Assembly: GCF_008122505.1 (NCBI RefSeq)
Contig: NZ_VSSB01000001.1
Location: 62,001-126,000 of the forward strand
Source: Agromyces mariniharenae
GTDB taxonomy: Bacteria > Actinomycetota > Actinomycetes > Actinomycetales > Microbacteriaceae
DNA length: 64,000 nt
Direction: 5' to 3'
Shown: positions 23,968 to 34,167 of the stretch, one piece after another
Layout: every line of letters begins with the position of its first letter
How positions within the stretch are numbered: the first letter of the stretch is position 1
The notes under the pieces: model-generated
The model's input: the letters and a program-made list of their open reading frames with translations, nothing else
Databases searched by the model: none
What the model was told of the DNA's origin: nothing
Translations under genes and position numbers: made by a program

Positions 23968-25131
23968 CTATCCGGCCAGCCCGAGCTCGCGGGCGATGAC
24001 CATGAGCTGCACCTCGTTCGTGCCCTCGCCGATCTCGAGGATCTTCGAGTCACGGTAGTGCCGGGCCACGGTCGTCTCGTTCATGAAGCCCATGCCGCCG
24101 AAGATCTGGGTCGCATCACGGGCGTTCAGCATGGCGGCGTCGCTCGAGACGAGCTTGGCGATCGCGGCCTCCTTCTTGAACGGGAGGCCGGCATCGGCCC
24201 GGCGGGCGGCGTCGTGCCAGGCGAGGCGGGCGGTGTGCACGCGGGCCTGCATCCCGGCGATGGTGAACGCGATGTACTGGTGGCTCGCGATGGGCACGCC
24301 GAAGACGTTGCGGGTCTTCGCGTAGGCCAGCGCCTCGTCGAGGCATCCCTGGGCCGCGCCCGTCGCGAGCGCGGCGATCGCGATGCGGCCCTCGTCGAGC
24401 GCTTGGAGGAAGTTGGCGAAGCCGCGTCCGCGCTCGCCGAGCAGGTTGGCGGCCGGCACGCGGACGTCGTCGAACGTCAGCGGGTGGGTGTCGGACGCGC
24501 GCCAGCCGGACTTGTCGTAGCCCGGGCCGACCGTGAAGCCGGGCGTACCGTTCGGCACGATGATCGTGGAGAGCTCCTTCGAAGTGGAGCCGTCGGGGCG
24601 CGTGCGCTCGCCGGTGACCGCCGTGACGGTGACGAACGACGTGATCGGCGTGCCCGAGTTGGTGATGAACTGCTTCGACCCGTTGATGACCCACTCGTCG
24701 CCGTCGAGCACGGCCGTGGTGCGGGTGGCGCCGGCGTCGGATCCGGCCTCGGGCTCGGTGAGGCCGAAGCCGGCGAGGGCGCGGCCTGCGACGAGGTCGG
24801 GCAGGAACTGCGCCTTCTGCTCCTCGGTGCCGTGGCGGTAGATCGGCATCGCGCCGAGGCCGACGGCGGCCTCGAGGGTGATCGCGATCGACTGGTCGAC
24901 GCGGGCGAGCGCCTCGATCGCGAGGCACAGCGCCATGTAGTCGCCGCCCTGGCCCCCGACCTCCTCGGGGAACGGCAGGCCGAAGAGCCCGAGCTCGCCC
25001 ATCTGCGCGACGACGTCCATCGACAGTTCGTGCGTTCGGTCGGCCTCGTAGGCCTGCGGCGCGACGACGGTGTCGGCGAACTCGCAGACCATGTCGTACA
25101 GCTGCTGTTCCTCGTCGGTCAGGTCGTGCAT
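23968..25131 (-). CDS. Acyl-CoA dehydrogenase (FadE19/isovaleryl-CoA type)
   Basis: 387 residues, full length for the family. Segments GFGLTEPEAGSDAG, GSKQFITNSG and the C-terminal ILEIGEGTNEVQ (catalytic Glu before Gly-Thr) are clear. In this operon it probably oxidises isovaleryl-CoA and related branched acyl-CoAs, passing electrons to ETF. ATG 25131 has AGGAG four bases upstream; another ATG at 25143 overlaps the carboxylase stop and would add four residues. Confidence 0.92.
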   Translation of the reverse strand: MHDLTDEEQQLYDMVCEFADTVVAPQAYEADRTHELSMDVVAQMGELGLFGLPFPEEVGGQGGDYMALCLAIEALARVDQSIAITLEAAVGLGAMPIYRHGTEEQKAQFLPDLVAGRALAGFGLTEPEAGSDAGATRTTAVLDGDEWVINGSKQFITNSGTPITSFVTVTAVTGERTRPDGSTSKELSTIIVPNGTPGFTVGPGYDKSGWRASDTHPLTFDDVRVPAANLLGERGRGFANFLQALDEGRIAIAALATGAAQGCLDEALAYAKTRNVFGVPIASHQYIAFTIAGMQARVHTARLAWHDAARRADAGLPFKKEAAIAKLVSSDAAMLNARDATQIFGGMGFMNETTVARHYRDSKILEIGEGTNEVQLMVIARELGLAG

Positions 25132-25139
25132 GGTGCTCC

Positions 25140-27209
25140 TCATTCCTGGTCGGATGCGTTCGCGACGGCGCCCTCGTGAGGGCCGTCGATGGACTGGGGT
25201 CCGGATGCCGCGGGGTGCGGCTCGATGCGCGCGACCGCCTGGTCGCGGCTCACGAGGTCGCCCACGGCGACGCTCAGGCGCACGGTGCCGTCGACGGCGG
25301 CGACGACGCGGTGCTCCATCTTCATCGCCTCGATGGCGACGATGGCGTCGCCCTCCTCGACGCGGTCGCCGTCGGCGGCGAACACCGCGGTGACGGTGCC
25401 CGGCATGGGCGAGCGCAGGTCGGGCTCGGCGGCGAGGCCGCCGCGTTCGGTCGCGGCGCGCCGCTGCTCGGCGCGGGCGCGACGATCGATGCGCACGAAG
25501 GCGACCGACTCGCCGTCGCCGTGCACCCAGACCGCTCCGTCGTCGCCGACCCGGACGACCGAGTCGGCCGGGCGTGCGGCCGCACCGTCGGGCTCGGCCA
25601 CGACCGTGCGGACGTCGTGCGGATGATCGCGGGGGGCGAGCAGCACCTCGACGTGGCGGACGGATCCCGGACGCCAGCCCGCGGCCGACTGCCAGGCCGT
25701 CGGTCCTCCGTCGGACGACGTGAGCCGGTCGGCGACGTCGTCGCTCGCGAATCGGAGCGCCGCCGCATCGACGAGCCACGGCGACACGGCGGCGGCGTCG
25801 CCCTCGGGCATCCGATCGATGAGTCCGGTGTCGAGGTCGCCGGCCTGCACGGCGGGATCGGCCAGCAGCCGCCGAAGGAAGGCGATGTTCGTGTCGACGC
25901 CGAGCACGACGGTGTCGACGAGTGCCCGGTCGAGTCGGTCGAGCGCCTCGGCGCGATCGGAGCCGAACGTGATCACCTTGGCGATCATCGGGTCGTAGTG
26001 GGCGGTGATCTCGAGGCCCTCGTCGATGCCGGCGTCGACGCGCACGCCGTCGCCGACCGGGGCACGCCAGGCGAGCACCTCACCGGTGGACGGGAGGAAG
26101 CCGCGGTGCGGCGTCTCCGCGTAGACGCGGGCCTCGATCGCGTGCCCGTGCAGCTCGATGTCCTGCTGCGTGATCGCGAGCGGCTCGCCGGCGGCGATCC
26201 GGAGCTGCTGCTCCACGAGGTCGATGCCGGTGACGAGCTCGGTCACGGGGTGCTCGACCTGGAGTCGCGTGTTCATCTCGATGAAGAAGAACTCGTCGGG
26301 CGCGGCATCCGACACCAGGAACTCGACCGTGCCCGCGCCGAGGTAGTCGACGCTGCGGGCTGCGTCGCACGCCGCCTGTCCGATGCGCGAACGCGTCGCG
26401 GCGTCGAGCAGCGGCGAGGGCGCCTCCTCGATGACCTTCTGGTGACGGCGCTGCAGCGAGCACTCGCGCTCGCCGAGGTGCACGACGGTGCCGTGGGCGT
26501 CGGCGAGCACCTGCACCTCGATGTGGCGCGGGCGCTCGATGAGTCGCTCGATGAGCATCGTGTCGTCGCCGAACGCGGCGAGGGCGATGCGGCGGGCCGC
26601 GGGCAGCGCGGCGGCGAGCTCGTCGGCGTCACGCGCGACCTGCATGCCCTTGCCGCCGCCGCCCGCCGAGGGCTTCACGAGCAGCGGGAAGCCGACCGAC
26701 GCGGACGCGGCGATGAGCGCCTCGTCGTCGAGCGTGGGGTCGGCGATGCCGGGCACGGTCGGCACGCCGGATGCCTCGACGTGCCGCTTCGCGCGGATCT
26801 TGTCGCCCATCACCTCGAGCGCCTCGATGCCGGGACCGACGAACACCAGCCCGGCATCGCGGCACGCCTCGGCGAACCCGGCGTGCTCGGAGAGGAATCC
26901 GTAGCCAGGGTGGATCGCCTCGGCGCCGGTCTCGAGGGCGGCGGCGACGATGCGCTCGGGGTCGAGGTAGCTCTCGGTCGCGGGGGCCGGGCCGATGCGC
27001 ACGGCCTCGTCGGCGAGTCGCACGTGCGGCGCGTCGGCGTCGGCATCGGAGTACACGGCGATCGAGCGGATGCCGAGGCGGCGCAGCGTGCGGATGACCC
27101 GGACGGCGATCTCACCGCGGTTGGCGACCAGCACGCGTTCGAACGGGCGGGGTGCGGAGCTTCGCATCGGTTCCGATGCCCGATCGGGTGGGCTCGTGAG
27201 CGTGACCAT
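25140..27209 (-). CDS. accA1: Acyl-CoA carboxylase alpha subunit, biotin carboxylase plus biotin carrier (methylcrotonyl-CoA type)
   Basis: 689 residues: biotin carboxylase domain (from [15 protein letters not shown] near residue 27, ATP-grasp GGGGKGM), a variable middle, and a C-terminal biotinyl domain with EAMKMEH, whose Lys carries biotin. With the beta subunit encoded at 32.5-34.1 kb it should carboxylate 3-methylcrotonyl-CoA in leucine breakdown, by analogy with AccA1/AccD1 of M. tuberculosis. ATG 27209 has AGAGAGG five bases upstream; other in-frame starts exist at 27257 and 27167. First gene of the unit running to citE, below two TetR-type operators. Confidence 0.93.
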
Positions 27210-27240: not shown

Positions 27241-27266
27241 ATCCAGTTAGCGCGCACTAACTGGAT
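27241..27266. promoter_or_regulatory. TetR-type operator 1 upstream of accA1
   Basis: ATCCAGTTAGCGCGCACTAACTGGAT is a 26-bp palindrome with one mismatched pair, core GTTAGCG-CG-CACTAAC. It lies 32 bases before the accA1 start and 5 bases from a second copy. Confidence 0.7.
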
Positions 27267-27271
27267 TCGAT

Positions 27272-27287
27272 GTTAGCGGTCGCTAAC
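27272..27287. promoter_or_regulatory. TetR-type operator 2 upstream of accA1
   Basis: GTTAGCG-GT-CGCTAAC is a perfect 7-2-7 palindrome. Its centre is 26 bases from that of operator 1, so two dimers could sit on the same or nearly the same face. Confidence 0.72.
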
Positions 27288-27301: not shown

Positions 27302-29056
27302 TCAGCGGCCCACCTTGCCGAACATCCCCGCGATCGGCGCGAGCAGCGAGGGGCGGGCGGCGACCCACGCCGCCGCGATGACCACGAGCGACGCGACGAA
27401 GATCCAGAAGCCGAGCCAGCCGTCGGCGTCTTGCGCCGCGTACATGTGGTTGAGGTTGCGCAGCGCCCCGGTCAGGAGGACGAGGGTGACGTGCACCACG
27501 ATGAAGGCGACGAAGTACAGCATGACCGGGAAGTGCACGGCCCGCGCCCACTCGACGGGATAGACGCGGTTGAGCGTCGTCGCCTGCTTCGGCCACAGCC
27601 CCGACATGCGCACGCCGGTCAGCGCCGCGAGGGGTGCCGCGATGAAGATCGTCACGAAGTAGGCGAGCACCTGGAGGCTGTTGTAGTTCACCCAGCCGTT
27701 CTCGAGCGGCCAGTCCAGCGACAGGTACTGCAGCAGGGCCGAGATCGCGTTCGGCACGATCTCCCAGCTCGTCGGCACGACGCGCATCCACTGCCCGGTC
27801 GCGAACAGCAGCACGACGAAGACGAGGCCGTTCACGAGCCACAGGATGTCGAGCGACTGGTGGAACCACAGGTTCAGGCTGATCCGGCCCTGCCCGCCCT
27901 TCGCCCAGCGCGGCGTCCAGTAGGCCGGGGGTCGCTGCTCGGTGCGGACCAGCAATCCCGAGCGGATGATCAGCACGATGAGGAAGACGTTGAAGAAGTG
28001 CTGCCAGCCGAGCCAGGCCGGCAGGCCCACCGGCGCGCCCTCGGGAAGGGGCGTCTCGCCGGGGTAGGTCGCGAGGAAGTCCTGCATGAGGTCCAGGCCC
28101 ATGAACCACCGCGTGAGCTGCACGACGATGGTCGCGGCGCCGATGATCGCGAGGATGCCGACGACGGATGCCCCGACCCATTGCCTGGGGGTCAGCGGGC
28201 CGTAGCGCTTCGGGGCGGGCTTCGAGGGGGCGGTCGGTGCCGCGGCCGGCGCGGCGGGCGCCGCCGCGGGCTCAGGCGGCGCGGCCGGCTCGGACGGTCG
28301 GGTGGGCGCTGCGGGCGCCGTCGCCACGGATGCCGCGGGCGCCGTGGATGCTGCGGGCGCCGCGGTCACGGGAGTGGGGGCTGCGGGCGCCGGCTCGACG
28401 GCCTCGGCGGGCGGTGCGGATGCGGCCACCGGCACGGCGGGCGCGGGCTCGGCGATCGGTGCGGATGCCGCCGCCGCCGGAGCGCGGGCCGGGGGCGCGG
28501 ACCCGGCCATCGGTGCGACCGCCGACGCCGGCGGCCATGGCTCGCCCCCGGCGACCCTCGGGAGCCCGCGGCGAAGCGCGGTGCCGGTCGCTGCCGTCGC
28601 CGCAGCGGCGGCCGCTGCGAGTTGCGGTGCAGCGGCCGTCGCGGCCGCCGGCGCCGCGGTCGGGACCGCGGCGGGCTCGATCATGGCTGCGGGCTGCGGG
28701 GCGGCCGCGGCATCCGTCACCTCGATCGTCTCAGCACGGGCCGCCTCGCCGGCCTCCGGCCACGGCCGGCCGCCCCGCACGCGAGGAAGTCCGCTTCGAA
28801 GCCGGCGAACCGACGCCGCGGCGACCGGCGCGACGGCGACCGCCTCCTGGGTCGACACGGCCGGAGCAATCGCCACCGCTGCGGCGGGAGCCGCCGGGGT
28901 CGACGCGACCGGCGCCTCCGCAGAGGCAGCCGACACAGCGGCCGCTTCGACCGACGCCGCCCGGGCGCCGCCGGGCGCGTCGCCGGCGGGCGGCCAGGGC
29001 TCACCGCCGCGCTGGCGCGGCAGTCCCCTGCGCAGGCTCCGCACGTTCGCGGCCAC
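27302..29056 (-). CDS. b-type cytochrome membrane protein with LRRGLPRxxGGxPWP repeats, linked to etfBA
   Basis: 584 residues from GTG 29056. The first 285 residues are Ala/Pro-rich and carry three copies of an LRxGLPRxxGGxPWP motif at 8-22, 86-100 and 161-175, about 76 residues apart. The rest is a membrane domain with hydrophobic segments near 295-315, 352-372, 402-420, 462-482, 508-530 and 548-567. Histidines H353, H399, H508 and H522 sit in or at the edges of helices and could ligate two haems, as in cytochrome b561/formate-dehydrogenase-gamma-like proteins. It starts 3 bases after etfA, so it may accept electrons from ETF. The repeat function is unknown to me. Confidence 0.75.
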
Positions 29057-29059
29057 GGG

Positions 29060-30046
29060 TCACCGCTTCCGTTCGGCGAGTGCGCTGATCAGCTGCGGGA
29101 CCACGGTGAAGACGTCGCCGACGACGCCGAAGTCGGCGACCTCGAAGATCGGTGCGTCGGGGTCCTTGTTCACGGCGACGATGTTCTTGGCCGTCTGCAT
29201 GCCGGCGCGGTGCTGGATGGCGCCCGAGATGCCGAGGGCGACGTACAGCTGCGGCGAGACGGACACACCGGTCTGCCCGACCTGGGCGGTCGCCGGGATG
29301 TAGCCGGCGTCGACCGCCGCGCGCGACGCGCCGATGGCGGCGCCGAGGGCGTCGGCGAGCTCCTCGACGAGCGCGAACTTCTCGGCCGAGCCGAGGCCGC
29401 GACCGCCCGAGACGACTCGCTTCGCCCCCCGCAGCTCGGGTCGGCTCGACGTCTCGGTCACCGCCTCGACCGACTCGATGGTCGCGGATGCCGCGCCCGA
29501 GGCCGTCACCTCGAGCGTCTCGAGGACGACGGGGCGGGCTTCGGCGCGCGCGTCGACGGCGCCCTGGCGCACGGTCACGACGATCGGTCCGAACGTCGCC
29601 GCGGAGTCGACGTTGTACGCGCCCCCGTAGACCGAGTGGCGGACGACGACGCCCTCGTCGTCGCGCGAGACGCCGATCGCGTCCACGGCGATCGGCGCGC
29701 CGGTGCGGGCGGCGAACCGGCCGGCGATGTCGCGGCCGTCGATCGAGTTCGAGACGAGCACCGCCTCGGGCGCGACGGTCGCCGCAGCCGCGGCGAGCGC
29801 GTCGACGTGCGGGATCGTGAGCTCGGACTGCGTCGAGGCCGTCTCGACGGCGAGCACCCGGTCGGCCCCGAGCGCGGCGGCCTGCTCGGCGAGCGACTGC
29901 GCCTGGCCTGGTGCGGTGACGGCGAGCGCGACCGGCGTGCCGATCTGCGAGGCGGTCGCGAGGAGGCCGGCCGCGCTCGTCGCGAGCTCACCGGTCGGCG
30001 TCGCCTCGAGCACGACGAGGATCGAGTCTGCGGGATAGTCGGTCAT
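29060..30046 (-). CDS. etfA: Electron transfer flavoprotein alpha subunit
   Basis: 328 residues. The C-terminal FAD-binding domain has the conserved [33 protein letters not shown] and [12 protein letters not shown] segments. The heterodimer with EtfB collects electrons from acyl-CoA dehydrogenases such as the one at 24 kb. It follows etfB by 10 bases and has the ribosome site GAGAGGA before the ATG. Confidence 0.96.
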
Positions 30047-30056
30047 GATCGTCCTC

Positions 30057-30833
30057 TCAGACCAGCCGGTTCTCGATCAGGAACTCGGCGATCCTGGTGC
30101 CGCCGTCGCCCTCGTCCGTGATCTTGACCCCCGCGCTGCGCGGGGGCTTCTCGGCGATGGCGGTCATGATCGACATGGCGACCGAGAGGTCCTCGGGCTC
30201 GATGCCGAGGTCGGCGGCGCTCAGCGTCTCGAACGGCTTCTTCTTCGCGGCCATGATGCCCTTGAAGTTCGGGAAGCGGGCGTCGGGGAGCGCCTCGGTG
30301 ATCGAGATGACGGCCGGCAACGGCGCGCTCACGCGCATGGTGCCGCCCTCGACGTTTCGCGTTCCCGACACCGAACCGTCGGAGATCTCGACCGAGGAGA
30401 GGGCGGTCGCGTTCGGCACCTCGAGCAGCTCGGCGAGCATGGCGGGGATCACGCCGCCGCTGCCGTCGGTCGAGAGGTTGCCGGTGATGACGAGGTCGAA
30501 CCCGGTGCGCCGGATCGCCGCGGCGAGGGTGCGCGCGGTGAGGCCGAGGTCCGCGGCCGCGAGGCCGGGGTCGGCGATGTGCACGGCCGATGCGGCTCCC
30601 ATCGCGAGGCCCTTGCGGATGGTCGTCGCGGCGCTCTCGGGCGCCATCGACATCGCGACCACCTCGACGTCGTCGTGCGCGTCGGCGTGGGCCAGTGCCA
30701 CCTCGAGGGCGCGCTCGCTGATCTCGTCGAGCACCGCCTCGCTCGCGGCGCGATCGGCGAGCCCCGTCTCGAGGTCGAGCTTGCGTTCCCCGTAGGTGTC
30801 GGGGACCTCCTTCACGAGGACGACGATCTTCAT
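30057..30833 (-). CDS. etfB: Electron transfer flavoprotein beta subunit
   Basis: 258 residues beginning [15 protein letters not shown] as in bacterial EtfB, with the AMP-binding-side segment [19 protein letters not shown]. First gene of etfB-etfA-cytochrome. A 12-codon leader reading frame (30830-30868) with a good ribosome site ends in an ATGA overlap with the etfB start, so etfB may be translated by coupling. A TetR-type operator lies about 100 bases upstream. Confidence 0.95.
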
Positions 30834-30868
30834 CGGGCCCGGCTCCCCGGCGTGCTCAGCATGGCCAT
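30830..30868 (-). CDS. 12-residue leader peptide overlapping etfB
   Basis: ATG at 30868 opens a 12-codon frame ([12 protein letters not shown]) whose TGA overlaps the etfB ATG by ATGA. Its ribosome site AGAGAGG lies 5 bases upstream and is identical in sequence and spacing to that of accA1. It may be a true coupling leader or the remains of a duplicated accA1-like start. The etfB start itself has no good ribosome site, which favours coupling. Confidence 0.45.
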   Translation of the reverse strand: MAMLSTPGSRAR

Positions 30869-30928: not shown

Positions 30929-30944
30929 GTTAGTGGCCGTTAAC
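30929..30944. promoter_or_regulatory. TetR-type operator upstream of etfB
   Basis: GTTAGTG-GC-CGTTAAC, two mismatches from a perfect 7-2-7 palindrome and clearly related to those before accA1 and accD1. The flank TAACTGAGATGGCAAG also resembles TAACTGAAATGACAAG beside the accA1 operator. Confidence 0.62.
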
Positions 30945-30967: not shown

Positions 30968-31540
30968 TCAGCGCGTGCCGGATGCCGCGACGGCGTCGGC
31001 GAGGCGCTCGATGCCGAACTCGAATGCGCGGTCGACGTCGCCGCCGAGCCGGAAGGCGCCGGCGAGCTCCATGCTCACGAACCCGTTGGCCCAGGCCGTG
31101 AACGTGCGGGCGGCGTCGAGCGCGTGCTCCTCGCCCGCCAGTTCGGCTGAGACCGCAAGGACCGACGCGCTCGACCGCGCCAGCGAGTCGGGATCGAGGC
31201 GGAGCTCGGCGCCCGGCGCGAAGATCAGCCGGAACGCCACCGGCCGCCGCCGGGCGAATGCGCGGACCGCACGTGCCATCGCCCGCAGCCGCGCTCGCGG
31301 ATCGCCGTCGCGAGCGTCGGGCGCCGCGTCGATGGAGTCGCCGAGCTCGCGCAGCGTGGCGTCGGCCACGAGCGTGATGAGCGCGTCGCGGTTGCTCACG
31401 CGCTTGTAGAGCGACGGCGCGCGCACGCCGACGCGCGTGGCGACCGCCTGCATGGTGAGGCCGTCGAGGCCGTCGCGCTCGAGGAGCTCGCGCCCCGCCT
31501 CGACGATCTCGGCGAGCGACGTGCGATCGGGTGTCGGCAT
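30968..31540 (-). CDS. TetR-family regulator of the divergent MBL hydrolase
   Basis: 190 residues from ATG 31540, which has GGAGG six bases upstream; an in-frame ATG at 31558 is less likely. The N-terminal helix-turn-helix reads MQAVATRVGVRAPSLYKRVSNRDALI, typical of TetR proteins with a WHG-type ligand domain. A perfect 9-3-9 palindrome lies between it and the divergent hydrolase gene, so it probably represses both. Not likely to be the regulator of the GTTAGYG sites, which are different. Confidence 0.85.
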   Translation of the reverse strand: MPTPDRTSLAEIVEAGRELLERDGLDGLTMQAVATRVGVRAPSLYKRVSNRDALITLVADATLRELGDSIDAAPDARDGDPRARLRAMARAVRAFARRRPVAFRLIFAPGAELRLDPDSLARSSASVLAVSAELAGEEHALDAARTFTAWANGFVSMELAGAFRLGGDVDRAFEFGIERLADAVAASGTR

Positions 31541-31581
31541 GTGGTCCTCCGGGTTCATCGGTCGATCTCCAGTATCGGCTA

Positions 31582-32488: not shown

Positions 32489-34096
32489 TCACATCCGGAA
32501 CAGGCCGAACGCGGGCTCGGGCAGCGGCGTGCGGCTCGCGAGCTCCAGCGCCAGGCCGAGCACGGTGCGAGTGTCGGCGGGATCGATGATCCCGTCGTCC
32601 CAGAGCCGGGCCGTCGAGTGGTACGGGCTCCCCTGGTGCTCGTACTGCTCGCGGATCGGGGCCTTGAACGCCTGCTCCGCGTCATCCGACCACGCTTCGC
32701 CCCGCACCGCGAGCTGGTCGCGCTTGACGGTCGAGAGCACGGACGCCGCCTGCTCGCCCCCCATCACCGAGATGCGCGCGTTCGGCCACATCCACAGGAA
32801 CCGCGGCGAGTACGCCCGGCCGCACATGGAGTAGTTGCCGGCGCCGAACGAGCCGCCGATGACGACCGTCAGCTTCGGCACGCGGGTCGTGGCGACCGCG
32901 GTGACCATCTTCGCGCCGTGCTTCGCGATGCCGCCGGCCTCCGCGTCGCGACCGACCATGAAGCCCGAGATGTTCTGCAGGAAGACGAGCGGGATGCCGC
33001 GCTGGTCGCAGAGCTCGATGAAGTGCGCGCCCTTCATGGCGGACTCGCTGAACAGCACGCCGTTGTTCGCGACGATGCCGACCGGGTGGCCGTCGATGTG
33101 GGCGAAGCCCGTGACGAGCGTGTCGCCGTACTCGGGCTTGAACTCGTTGAACTCGCTCGCGTCGACCAGCCGCGCGATGACCTCGTGCACGTCGTAGGGC
33201 TGCTGCACGTCGACGGGCACGGCGGCGAGGAGGTCGCCCGGGTCGACGGCGGGCGGACGCGACTCCCGCACCGCCCAGGCGCGTTCGGCCGGCTGCGGGA
33301 GGGTCGCCACCATGTCGCGCACCAGCTCGAGCGCGTGCTCGTCGTCGTCGGCCAGGTGGTCGGTGACGCCCGAGATGCGCGAGTGCAGGTCGCCGCCGCC
33401 GAGTTCTTCGGGGGTGACCACCTCGCCGATGGCGGCCTTCACGAGCGGCGGCCCGCCGAGGAAGATGGTGCCCTGGTTGCGCACGATCACGGTCTCGTCG
33501 CTCATCGCGGGCACGTACGCGCCGCCCGCGGTGCACGAGCCGAGCACGGCGGCGAGCTGCGGGATGCGCATCGACGAGAGCTGCGCCTGGTTGTAGAAGA
33601 TGCGGCCGAAGTGGTCGCGGTCGGGGAAGACCTCGTCCTGCATGGGCAGGAAGGCGCCGCCCGAGTCGACGAGGTAGACGCAAGGGAGGCGGTGCTCGCG
33701 GGCGACCTCCTGCGCGCGCAGGTGCTTCTTGACGGTCATCGGGTAGTACGTTCCGCCCTTGACCGTCGCGTCGTTGCAGACGACCACGACCGGCCGGCCC
33801 TGCACGAGTCCCACGCCCGTGATGATGCCGGCTCCCGGCGAGTCGCCGTCGTACAGCCCGTCGGCGGCGAGCGGCGAGAGCTCGAGGAACGGGCTGCCCT
33901 CGTCGAGCAGCCGATCGACGCGGTCGCGGGGCAGCAGCTTGCCACGCGAGACGTGCCGTTCGCGGGATGCCTCGGGCCCGCCGAGAGCGGCCGTGGCGAG
34001 CTTCTCGCGCAGCTCGCGCACGAGCTCCGCGTGCCCGGCGGCGTAGCGCCGCGCCGTGTCGCTCGAGGGGTCGATGCCCGTCGTGAGGGTCGTCAT
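32489..34096 (-). CDS. accD1: Acyl-CoA carboxylase beta subunit, carboxyltransferase (methylcrotonyl-CoA type)
   Basis: 535 residues, the length of methylcrotonyl-CoA carboxylase beta. Both crotonase-like halves are present, with oxyanion-hole regions around [16 protein letters not shown] and [16 protein letters not shown]. It pairs with the alpha subunit at 25.1-27.2 kb, though the genes are 5 kb apart and separately promoted. Start at ATG 34096; the frame stays open to ATG 34147 next to the operator. It is divergent from the TetR gene at 34200. Confidence 0.93.
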
Positions 34097-34151: not shown

Positions 34152-34167
34152 GTTAGTGTTCACTAAC
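34152..34167. promoter_or_regulatory. TetR-type operator between accD1 and its TetR gene
   Basis: GTTAGTG-TT-CACTAAC, a perfect 7-2-7 palindrome of the same family as those before accA1 and etfB. It is 55 bases from the accD1 start and 32 from the regulator start, fitting repression of both. Confidence 0.75.

Follow-up and report, generated by a model that had tools for sequence, protein, structure and literature searches.

Mycobacterial EtfD was proposed to pass electrons of electron transfer flavoprotein (ETF) on to menaquinone by way of Fe-S clusters and a single haem b, and it works in the oxidative direction (PMC13083937, EMBO J 2026). The same paper describes "conserved interspersed repeats" in a disordered stretch at the EtfD C-terminus, through which ETF and EtfD meet in an AlphaFold3 model (PMC13083937). 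In the present study, a stretch of 64,000 nucleotides from Agromyces mariniharenae (assembly GCF_008122505.1, contig NZ_VSSB01000001.1, positions 62,001 to 126,000), hereafter the window, was analyzed for a three-gene operon in which etfB and etfA are followed by the gene of a membrane cytochrome b. The etf-linked cytochrome is proposed, with a probability of about 0.72, to be an ETF:menaquinone oxidoreductase, a non-homologous third kind beside ETF:quinone oxidoreductase (ETF-QO) and EtfD. Searches of literature titles and abstract beginnings found no description of an ETF-linked cytochrome of this kind, nor of an ETF-to-quinone route in carriers of the operon. The annotation of one etf-linked public record reads only "cytochrome b/b6 domain-containing protein".

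Gene Organization of the etf Operon

The three genes of the operon are as follows.

30057..30833, minus strand: etfB, ETF beta subunit, 258 aa (PF01012, 109.2 bits)
29060..30046, minus strand: etfA, ETF alpha subunit, 328 aa (PF00766, 115.9 bits; PF01012, 89.1 bits)
27302..29056, minus strand: ETF-linked cytochrome b, 584 aa, GTG start, with an N-terminal tail (residues 1-285) and six long predicted membrane helices in residues 290-566

An earlier note, made from the letters of the window, had given the order etfB, etfA and membrane protein with gaps of 10 and 3 bases, and the list of open reading frames confirmed both the order and the gaps. Its remark that the window holds no ETF-QO gene could be extended to the whole genome (4.08 Mb, 3 contigs, one ETF pair): the Pfam search gave no match to the ETF-QO domain PF05187 in the cytochrome or the genome, and none to the CCG domain PF02754 in the genome. 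The sole Pfam domain in the 584-aa protein was PF01292; CCG, 4Fe-4S and flavin adenine dinucleotide (FAD) domains were not found in it.

Linkage of the Cytochrome to etfBA

The set of relatives comprised 60 genomes, the source genome included (37 Agromyces and 23 others). The membrane part of the cytochrome was found in 38 of them (35/37 Agromyces, 3/23 others) and ETF alpha in 41, of which 23 were Agromyces. When the gene places were compared by eye, etfA was directly followed on its own strand by the cytochrome gene in all 23 ETF-bearing Agromyces. No linked set was seen in the 14 ETF-free Agromyces genomes: 11 had one cytochrome elsewhere (about 54-60% identity), two had none, and one (G014) had a copy of the 54-60% type together with a close copy ending at a contig end. 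The pattern of 23/23 against 0/14 therefore indicates that ETF and the linked cytochrome go together, in agreement with the co-occurrence with etfBA that had been suggested.

Furthermore, a scan of GTDB species genomes gave 517 confirmed loci, and the best 80 of them were analyzed. Among these best 80 of 517, etfA lay directly upstream on the same strand in 72, and 71 of these also had etfB; five of the remaining eight lacked the flank and three were unlinked (L124, L151, L158). The best 80 loci span Agromyces, Microbacterium, Arthrobacter, Pseudarthrobacter, Glutamicibacter, Sinomonas, Georgenia, Cryobacterium, Herbiconiux and others.

The neighbors bear on the direction of electron flow. Cytochromes of this sort are reversible in principle, so that the protein might take electrons from menaquinol and reduce ETF for an acyl-coenzyme A (acyl-CoA) reductase or another reductive enzyme; EtfA also scores 182.6 bits on an ETF model of acryloyl-CoA reductases, far short of the 600 required. 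However, the neighbors look catabolic, with an acyl-CoA dehydrogenase and carboxylases in the window and, upstream in the 72 linked loci, enoyl-CoA hydratase in 36 and acyl-CoA dehydrogenase in 32. Moreover, EtfD, which the cytochrome excludes as described below, works in the oxidative direction (PMC13083937). Reverse flow is thus considered very unlikely.

Frames of 836-1149 aa in three loci were taken as candidate EtfA-cytochrome fusions and rejected, the upstream part being etfA DNA in another frame. As for single loci, one genome (G232) carries three separate etfB-etfA-cytochrome sets (L173, L174, L175). A mobilizable Cnuibacter plasmid (NZ_CP020716.1, L205) carries etfA and a tail-less 302-aa cytochrome b, adjoining thiolase, CoA-transferase and carboxylase genes. 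In three genomes of family f6 (L035, L036, L182), etfBA and an unlinked cytochrome share a strand, about 9 kb apart.

Distribution Relative to EtfD and ETF-QO

The order survey covered 198 genomes of completeness ≥95. A match of >300 bits was called a close cytochrome, and EtfD-like was the name given to a CCG match of 258 nt or more within a frame of 580 aa or longer. A close cytochrome was present in 49 genomes, ETF alpha in 150, and EtfD-like genes in 51, all of them ETF-bearing. EtfD was absent from all 49 of the close-cytochrome genomes (raw counts, kinship ignored). The cytochrome was linked to ETF in 29 of the 49, and G128, with etfA and cytochrome each near a contig end, is likely the thirtieth. 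Weaker cytochrome matches occurred in 15 further genomes, seven of which have EtfD; ten of these matches gave 130-230 bits in frames of 502-639 aa and are probably of the molybdopterin-fused kind, two such proteins having been read at other loci. Among the 71 genomes with a best EtfA below 1e-31, a threshold picked after the data were seen, 34 had the cytochrome, 36 had EtfD and one had neither.

The same was found in the 60 relatives, where EtfD-like genes were present in 10 ETF-bearing genomes without the cytochrome and in none with it; five ETF-bearing genomes had neither. In addition, PF05187 was found in 0/37 Agromyces genomes, the ETF-QO search not extending to the 198-genome survey. Of the absences that the earlier note had proposed to look for, that of EtfD-type genes in cytochrome-bearing genomes was observed at both scales, and that of ETF-QO in the Agromyces genomes. 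Eight CCG loci were read; five encoded membrane-plus-Fe-S proteins and three, which were excluded, GlcF-like proteins. The one of these five that was compared with PDB 9ojn matched it at 713 bits. A long-frame CCG match alone was rejected as an EtfD call, as frames of 587-752 aa were seen for GlcF-like proteins too.

The exclusion might reflect shared ancestry, that is, lineages lacking one of the genes without any functional replacement, for the genomes are related and families f1, f16 and f18 are uniform. Against this, families f3 (cytochromes unlinked), f7 and f9 each contain both kinds, as does genus g7, where the cytochrome is in 11 genomes (linked in eight) and EtfD in five; in no searched genome do the two kinds occur together. 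We therefore regard shared ancestry as an improbable explanation.

Phylogenetic Analysis

In the cytochrome tree, the repeat-bearing etf-linked proteins mostly formed one set apart from the unlinked copies, with a Shimodaira-Hasegawa-like approximate likelihood ratio test (SH-aLRT) value of 98. This supported set of 90 rows contained 83 linked, one not linked and six of unknown linkage, with L153 just outside it. A second etf-linked set, formed by four repeat-less Agromyces proteins, stood beside the unlinked copies, and L175 stood apart; given the supported branches, the linked/unlinked label must have changed at least twice. The EtfA tree had 74 rows, with L100-L164 thinned to a third. A 100/99 branch separated all 53 cytochrome-linked EtfAs from all 11 EtfAs of EtfD genomes, which indicates that ETF and its acceptor travel together.

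These trees also bear on whether co-transcription with etfBA is incidental and the true partner of the cytochrome is a different one. Candidates are a molybdopterin oxidoreductase and a role as superoxide or ferric reductase, since PF00174 molybdopterin domains are fused to two distant relatives, ETF-free genomes keep solitary repeat-less copies, and superoxide oxidase is among the nearest folds. However, such a partner does not fit well with the ETF co-inheritance, the EtfD exclusion and the clustering of the etf-linked cytochromes and of their EtfAs. Moreover, a molybdopterin partner beside the etf-linked cytochromes was sought and rejected: no relative of the two PF00174 domains was found in the fetched DNA of 121 loci (8 not shown to be etf-linked). 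Another partner is considered unlikely.

Several observations weigh against the proposed ETF:menaquinone oxidoreductase function. A repeat-less unlinked cytochrome copy is present in 34/37 Agromyces and is kept with or without ETF. Since repeat-less copies occur in ETF-free genomes, the cytochrome core is not ETF-specific, and an ETF-specific core was rejected. The earlier note had named homologues regularly away from etfBA and near other electron donors, and unconserved haem ligands, as signs against its reading; homologues away from etfBA were found, and the predicted haem-ligand histidines proved to be conserved. Furthermore, 56 of the 150 ETF-bearing genomes in the survey have neither acceptor, nearly all of them with a lower-scoring EtfA. 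Six EtfAs from genomes with an unlinked cytochrome fall on the EtfD side of the EtfA tree, which speaks against a simple rule.

The unlinked repeat-less copy of the source genome lies at C1:732813-733664 (L033 8805-9791) and is 56% identical. A fixed partner of the unlinked copy was rejected, no neighbor being common to the 13 loci read by eye, one of which is a molybdopterin fusion. A membrane protein of 254-266 residues recurs near the unlinked copy in L033, L047 and L049; close relatives share neighbors.

Membrane Domain of the Cytochrome

The match to PF01292 (cytochrome b561/Ni-hydrogenase cytochrome b) covered residues 352-536 with 36.3 bits against a cut-off of 30.1, and the hydrogenase b-type cytochrome model TIGR02125 gave 9.6 bits, below its cut-off of 121.5. 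Four histidines are predicted haem ligands, their membrane sides being assigned from the predicted topology.

27998..28000, minus strand: His353 codon, predicted outer haem ligand (50/50 in the alignment)
27860..27862, minus strand: His399 codon, predicted inner (cytoplasmic side) haem ligand (50/50)
27533..27535, minus strand: His508 codon, predicted inner haem ligand (50/50)
27491..27493, minus strand: His522 codon, predicted outer haem ligand (50/50)

H353, H399, H508 and H522 lie where they had been claimed to lie and were invariant in 50/50 aligned sequences (the window's own included) with identity down to 32%; H537 was not conserved in the same alignment. In a second alignment H399 was found in 16/17, because the most distant row was shifted by one residue. 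The membrane part folded alone by AlphaFold2 had a mean predicted local distance difference test (pLDDT) score of 87.8. Foldseek gave no significant match for the full model, and significant fold matches came only from a second aligner that re-aligned Foldseek's own list; superoxide oxidase was among the nearest folds.

The N-Terminal Tail and Its Repeats

The tail of the cytochrome contains three repeats.

28202..29056, minus strand: Ala/Pro-rich tail, residues 1-285 (pLDDT blocks 36-63, no predicted secondary structure)
28991..29035, minus strand: repeat 1, residues 8-22, LRxGLPRxxGGxPWP motif
28757..28801, minus strand: repeat 2, residues 86-100, same motif
28532..28576, minus strand: repeat 3, residues 161-175, same motif

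The low-complexity N-terminus with three such motifs was as previously described; the repeats start at residues 8, 86 and 161, with spacings of 78 and 75 (about 76 had been claimed). Ala and Pro make up 55% of the tail, which is predicted to be disordered, and its tryptophans (W21, W99, W174) are confined to the repeats. The shuffle test took 69 of the 72 tails of etf-linked homologues, three being dropped where the landmark pattern failed. The relaxed full motif occurred 162 times against 0.0 in residue shuffles, and the relaxed R.G[LM]PR core 194 times against 0.09. All 72 etf-linked proteins had at least one copy of the core and 49 had three, with a median spacing of 75 and the first copy typically about 8 residues into the protein. 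The GGxPWP half was lost in several Arthrobacter and other relatives, and the repeats were absent from four etf-linked Agromyces cytochromes (G001, G006, G016, G024). No relatives of the tail were found among solved structures.

The motif profile matched 21 of the 60 relatives (19 Agromyces at etf-linked loci, two other genomes weakly) and 21 of 150 genomes of the family; the search scored part of the candidates per genome, so these counts are lower bounds and other carriers are possible. The 23 stretches fetched around motif matches cover 19 of 21 matching genomes, the two left out being the source genome and G073, in which the motif matches fall between the ETF and cytochrome places. In 22 of the 23, etfB, etfA and the cytochrome were all present, the exception being L229 (E 3.9e-4). 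By strength, 21/21 family-search stretches with E ≤ 1.1e-5 carried the three genes, as did 1/2 of the weaker matches; three stretches from weak matches of the 60-relative search carried none of them. The motif search proposed in the earlier note thus led, from the repeat profile alone, to etfBA-cytochrome loci.

Two loci with unusual tails were seen. In L204 (G012:C35), a second etfBA is accompanied by tail motifs in two reading frames, with no membrane part found, and it looks decayed. In L209, two inverted etfB-etfA-cytochrome sets with the same motifs lie about 2 kb apart, an apparent recent inverted duplication.

For comparison, 25 EtfD loci of the 198-genome survey were read, long frames being favored; 22 were usable, and L168, L244 and L249 were misread by the tail script. 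C-terminal tails of more than 100 residues were found in six EtfDs (L234-L237, L240, L242), all of family f18; contig ends truncate two of the six. The repeats in these tails are either PSWE (7, 12 and 3 copies) or DPWD (9, 9 and 3 copies), and every tryptophan except one sits inside them. The cytochrome and EtfD motifs share little more than Pro and Trp. Tryptophan-bearing repeats on disordered tails of two unrelated ETF dehydrogenases make ETF docking the most economical reading, to which we give about an even chance. The repeats may instead bind another protein, the membrane surface or acyl-CoA dehydrogenases; they are basic and carry Trp-Pro, and tail-less etf-linked cytochromes exist. On the other hand, strong repeat matches in the searched genomes adjoin etfBA, all but those of one decayed-looking copy lie on the cytochrome, and some EtfDs, which serve ETF, have their own Trp repeats. 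A partner other than ETF is a serious possibility, if somewhat short of even odds.

Proposed Function

The operon would supply ETF together with its own membrane electron acceptor. ETF, reduced by acyl-CoA dehydrogenases, here probably those of branched-chain amino-acid breakdown, would meet the six-helix cytochrome b at the cytoplasmic face. ETF would hand over single electrons to the inner haem (H399/H508), from which they would reach the outer haem (H353/H522) and then menaquinone at a putative quinone site. The ETF-QO/EtfD job would be performed without flavin and without an Fe-S cluster, by a bare di-haem wire. With electrons flowing outward across the membrane, the uphill transfer between acyl-CoA and low-potential menaquinone would be aided by the membrane potential. 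The three Trp-bearing repeats of the long, predicted cytoplasmic and disordered tail may act as weak repeated docking sites, raising the local ETF concentration. That the cytochrome passes ETF electrons to quinone had been the reading of the earlier note; the motif, co-occurrence and EtfD-exclusion tests support it, and we infer the transfer from them.

Compared with the membrane topology of FdnI, the cytochrome has an extra N-terminal helix, and its core is therefore probably inverted in the membrane. A wider picture is offered tentatively, at rather less than an even chance. In it, the cytochrome would be a third, unrelated class of ETF dehydrogenase, a di-haem wire that takes electrons directly from the ETF flavin and whose core, inverted relative to formate dehydrogenase, would let the membrane potential drive acyl-CoA oxidation onto menaquinone, and Trp-repeat tails would have arisen separately on the cytochrome and EtfD as a general means of fishing for ETF.

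If the proposed function holds, the cytochrome would stand in for the established enzymes through which electrons of fat and amino-acid breakdown enter respiration in Agromyces, Microbacterium, Arthrobacter and related bacteria with the etfBA-cytochrome operon. It would then be, to our knowledge, the simplest ETF:quinone oxidoreductase, and would be a test case for whether ETF oxidation requires Fe-S clusters or a second flavin. The tails of the cytochrome and EtfD would provide a case of separately evolved repeat tails.

Neighboring Genes and Putative Operator

The genes and palindromes around the operon are as follows.

23968..25131, minus strand: acyl-CoA dehydrogenase, likely electron donor to ETF (PF00441/02770/02771)
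25140..27134, minus strand: biotin-dependent acyl-CoA carboxylase alpha subunit, start uncertain (Pfam and neighbor reading)
27246..27287 (27246-27261 and 27272-27287): two palindromes of the GTTAG-N7-TAAC kind, before the carboxylase/acyl-CoA dehydrogenase operon
30929..30944, no strand: palindrome GTTAGTGGCCGTTAAC, likely operator, upstream of etfB (motif search)
30968..31558, minus strand: TetR-family regulator, upstream of the etf operon (PF00440/PF13305)
32489..34096, minus strand: acyl-CoA carboxyltransferase subunit, start uncertain (PF01039, 516 bits for the longer form)
34152..34167: palindrome of the GTTAG-N7-TAAC kind, between the carboxyltransferase and a second TetR gene

Each of the four GTTAG-N7-TAAC sites of the window (27246, 27272, 30929, 34152) lies a short way upstream of either the etf operon or one of the two carboxylase genes. 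Strand-matches with at most one mismatch numbered 8 in the window against 0.33 expected. Lying near two TetR genes, the four sites are a probable shared operator. Their presence at the etf-cytochrome operon and at the carboxylase genes suggests that the operon probably forms one regulon with the acyl-CoA dehydrogenase and carboxylase genes, the pathway of which is probably leucine-type breakdown.

Comparison with Known Systems

With FdnI, HyaC and other PF01292 proteins, the cytochrome has in common the Pfam family, a similar core fold and the four conserved histidines; it differs from FdnI and HyaC in having ETF as gene partner and a 285-residue repeat tail. The cytochromes b fused to a molybdopterin oxidoreductase domain are related to it in their membrane parts (about 32-50% identity) but carry PF00174, and the two that were read (L038 7204-8982, L181 6033-7673) had no ETF linkage. 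Compared with ETF-QO/ETFDH, which has FAD plus 4Fe-4S, the cytochrome would do the same job without an FAD or Fe-S domain. The closest counterpart is the EtfD/EMO/FadF group of CCG iron-sulfur, haem b ETF:menaquinone oxidoreductases (PDB 9ojn), with which it would share both job and partner. EtfD has a membrane haem b next to the quinone, some EtfDs have a long disordered repeat tail, as the cytochrome has, and EtfD and the ETF-linked cytochrome were not found in the same genome. However, the cytochrome lacks the CCG and Fe-S domains and has two predicted haem sites instead of one haem, and its tail is N-terminal rather than C-terminal and bears different repeats.

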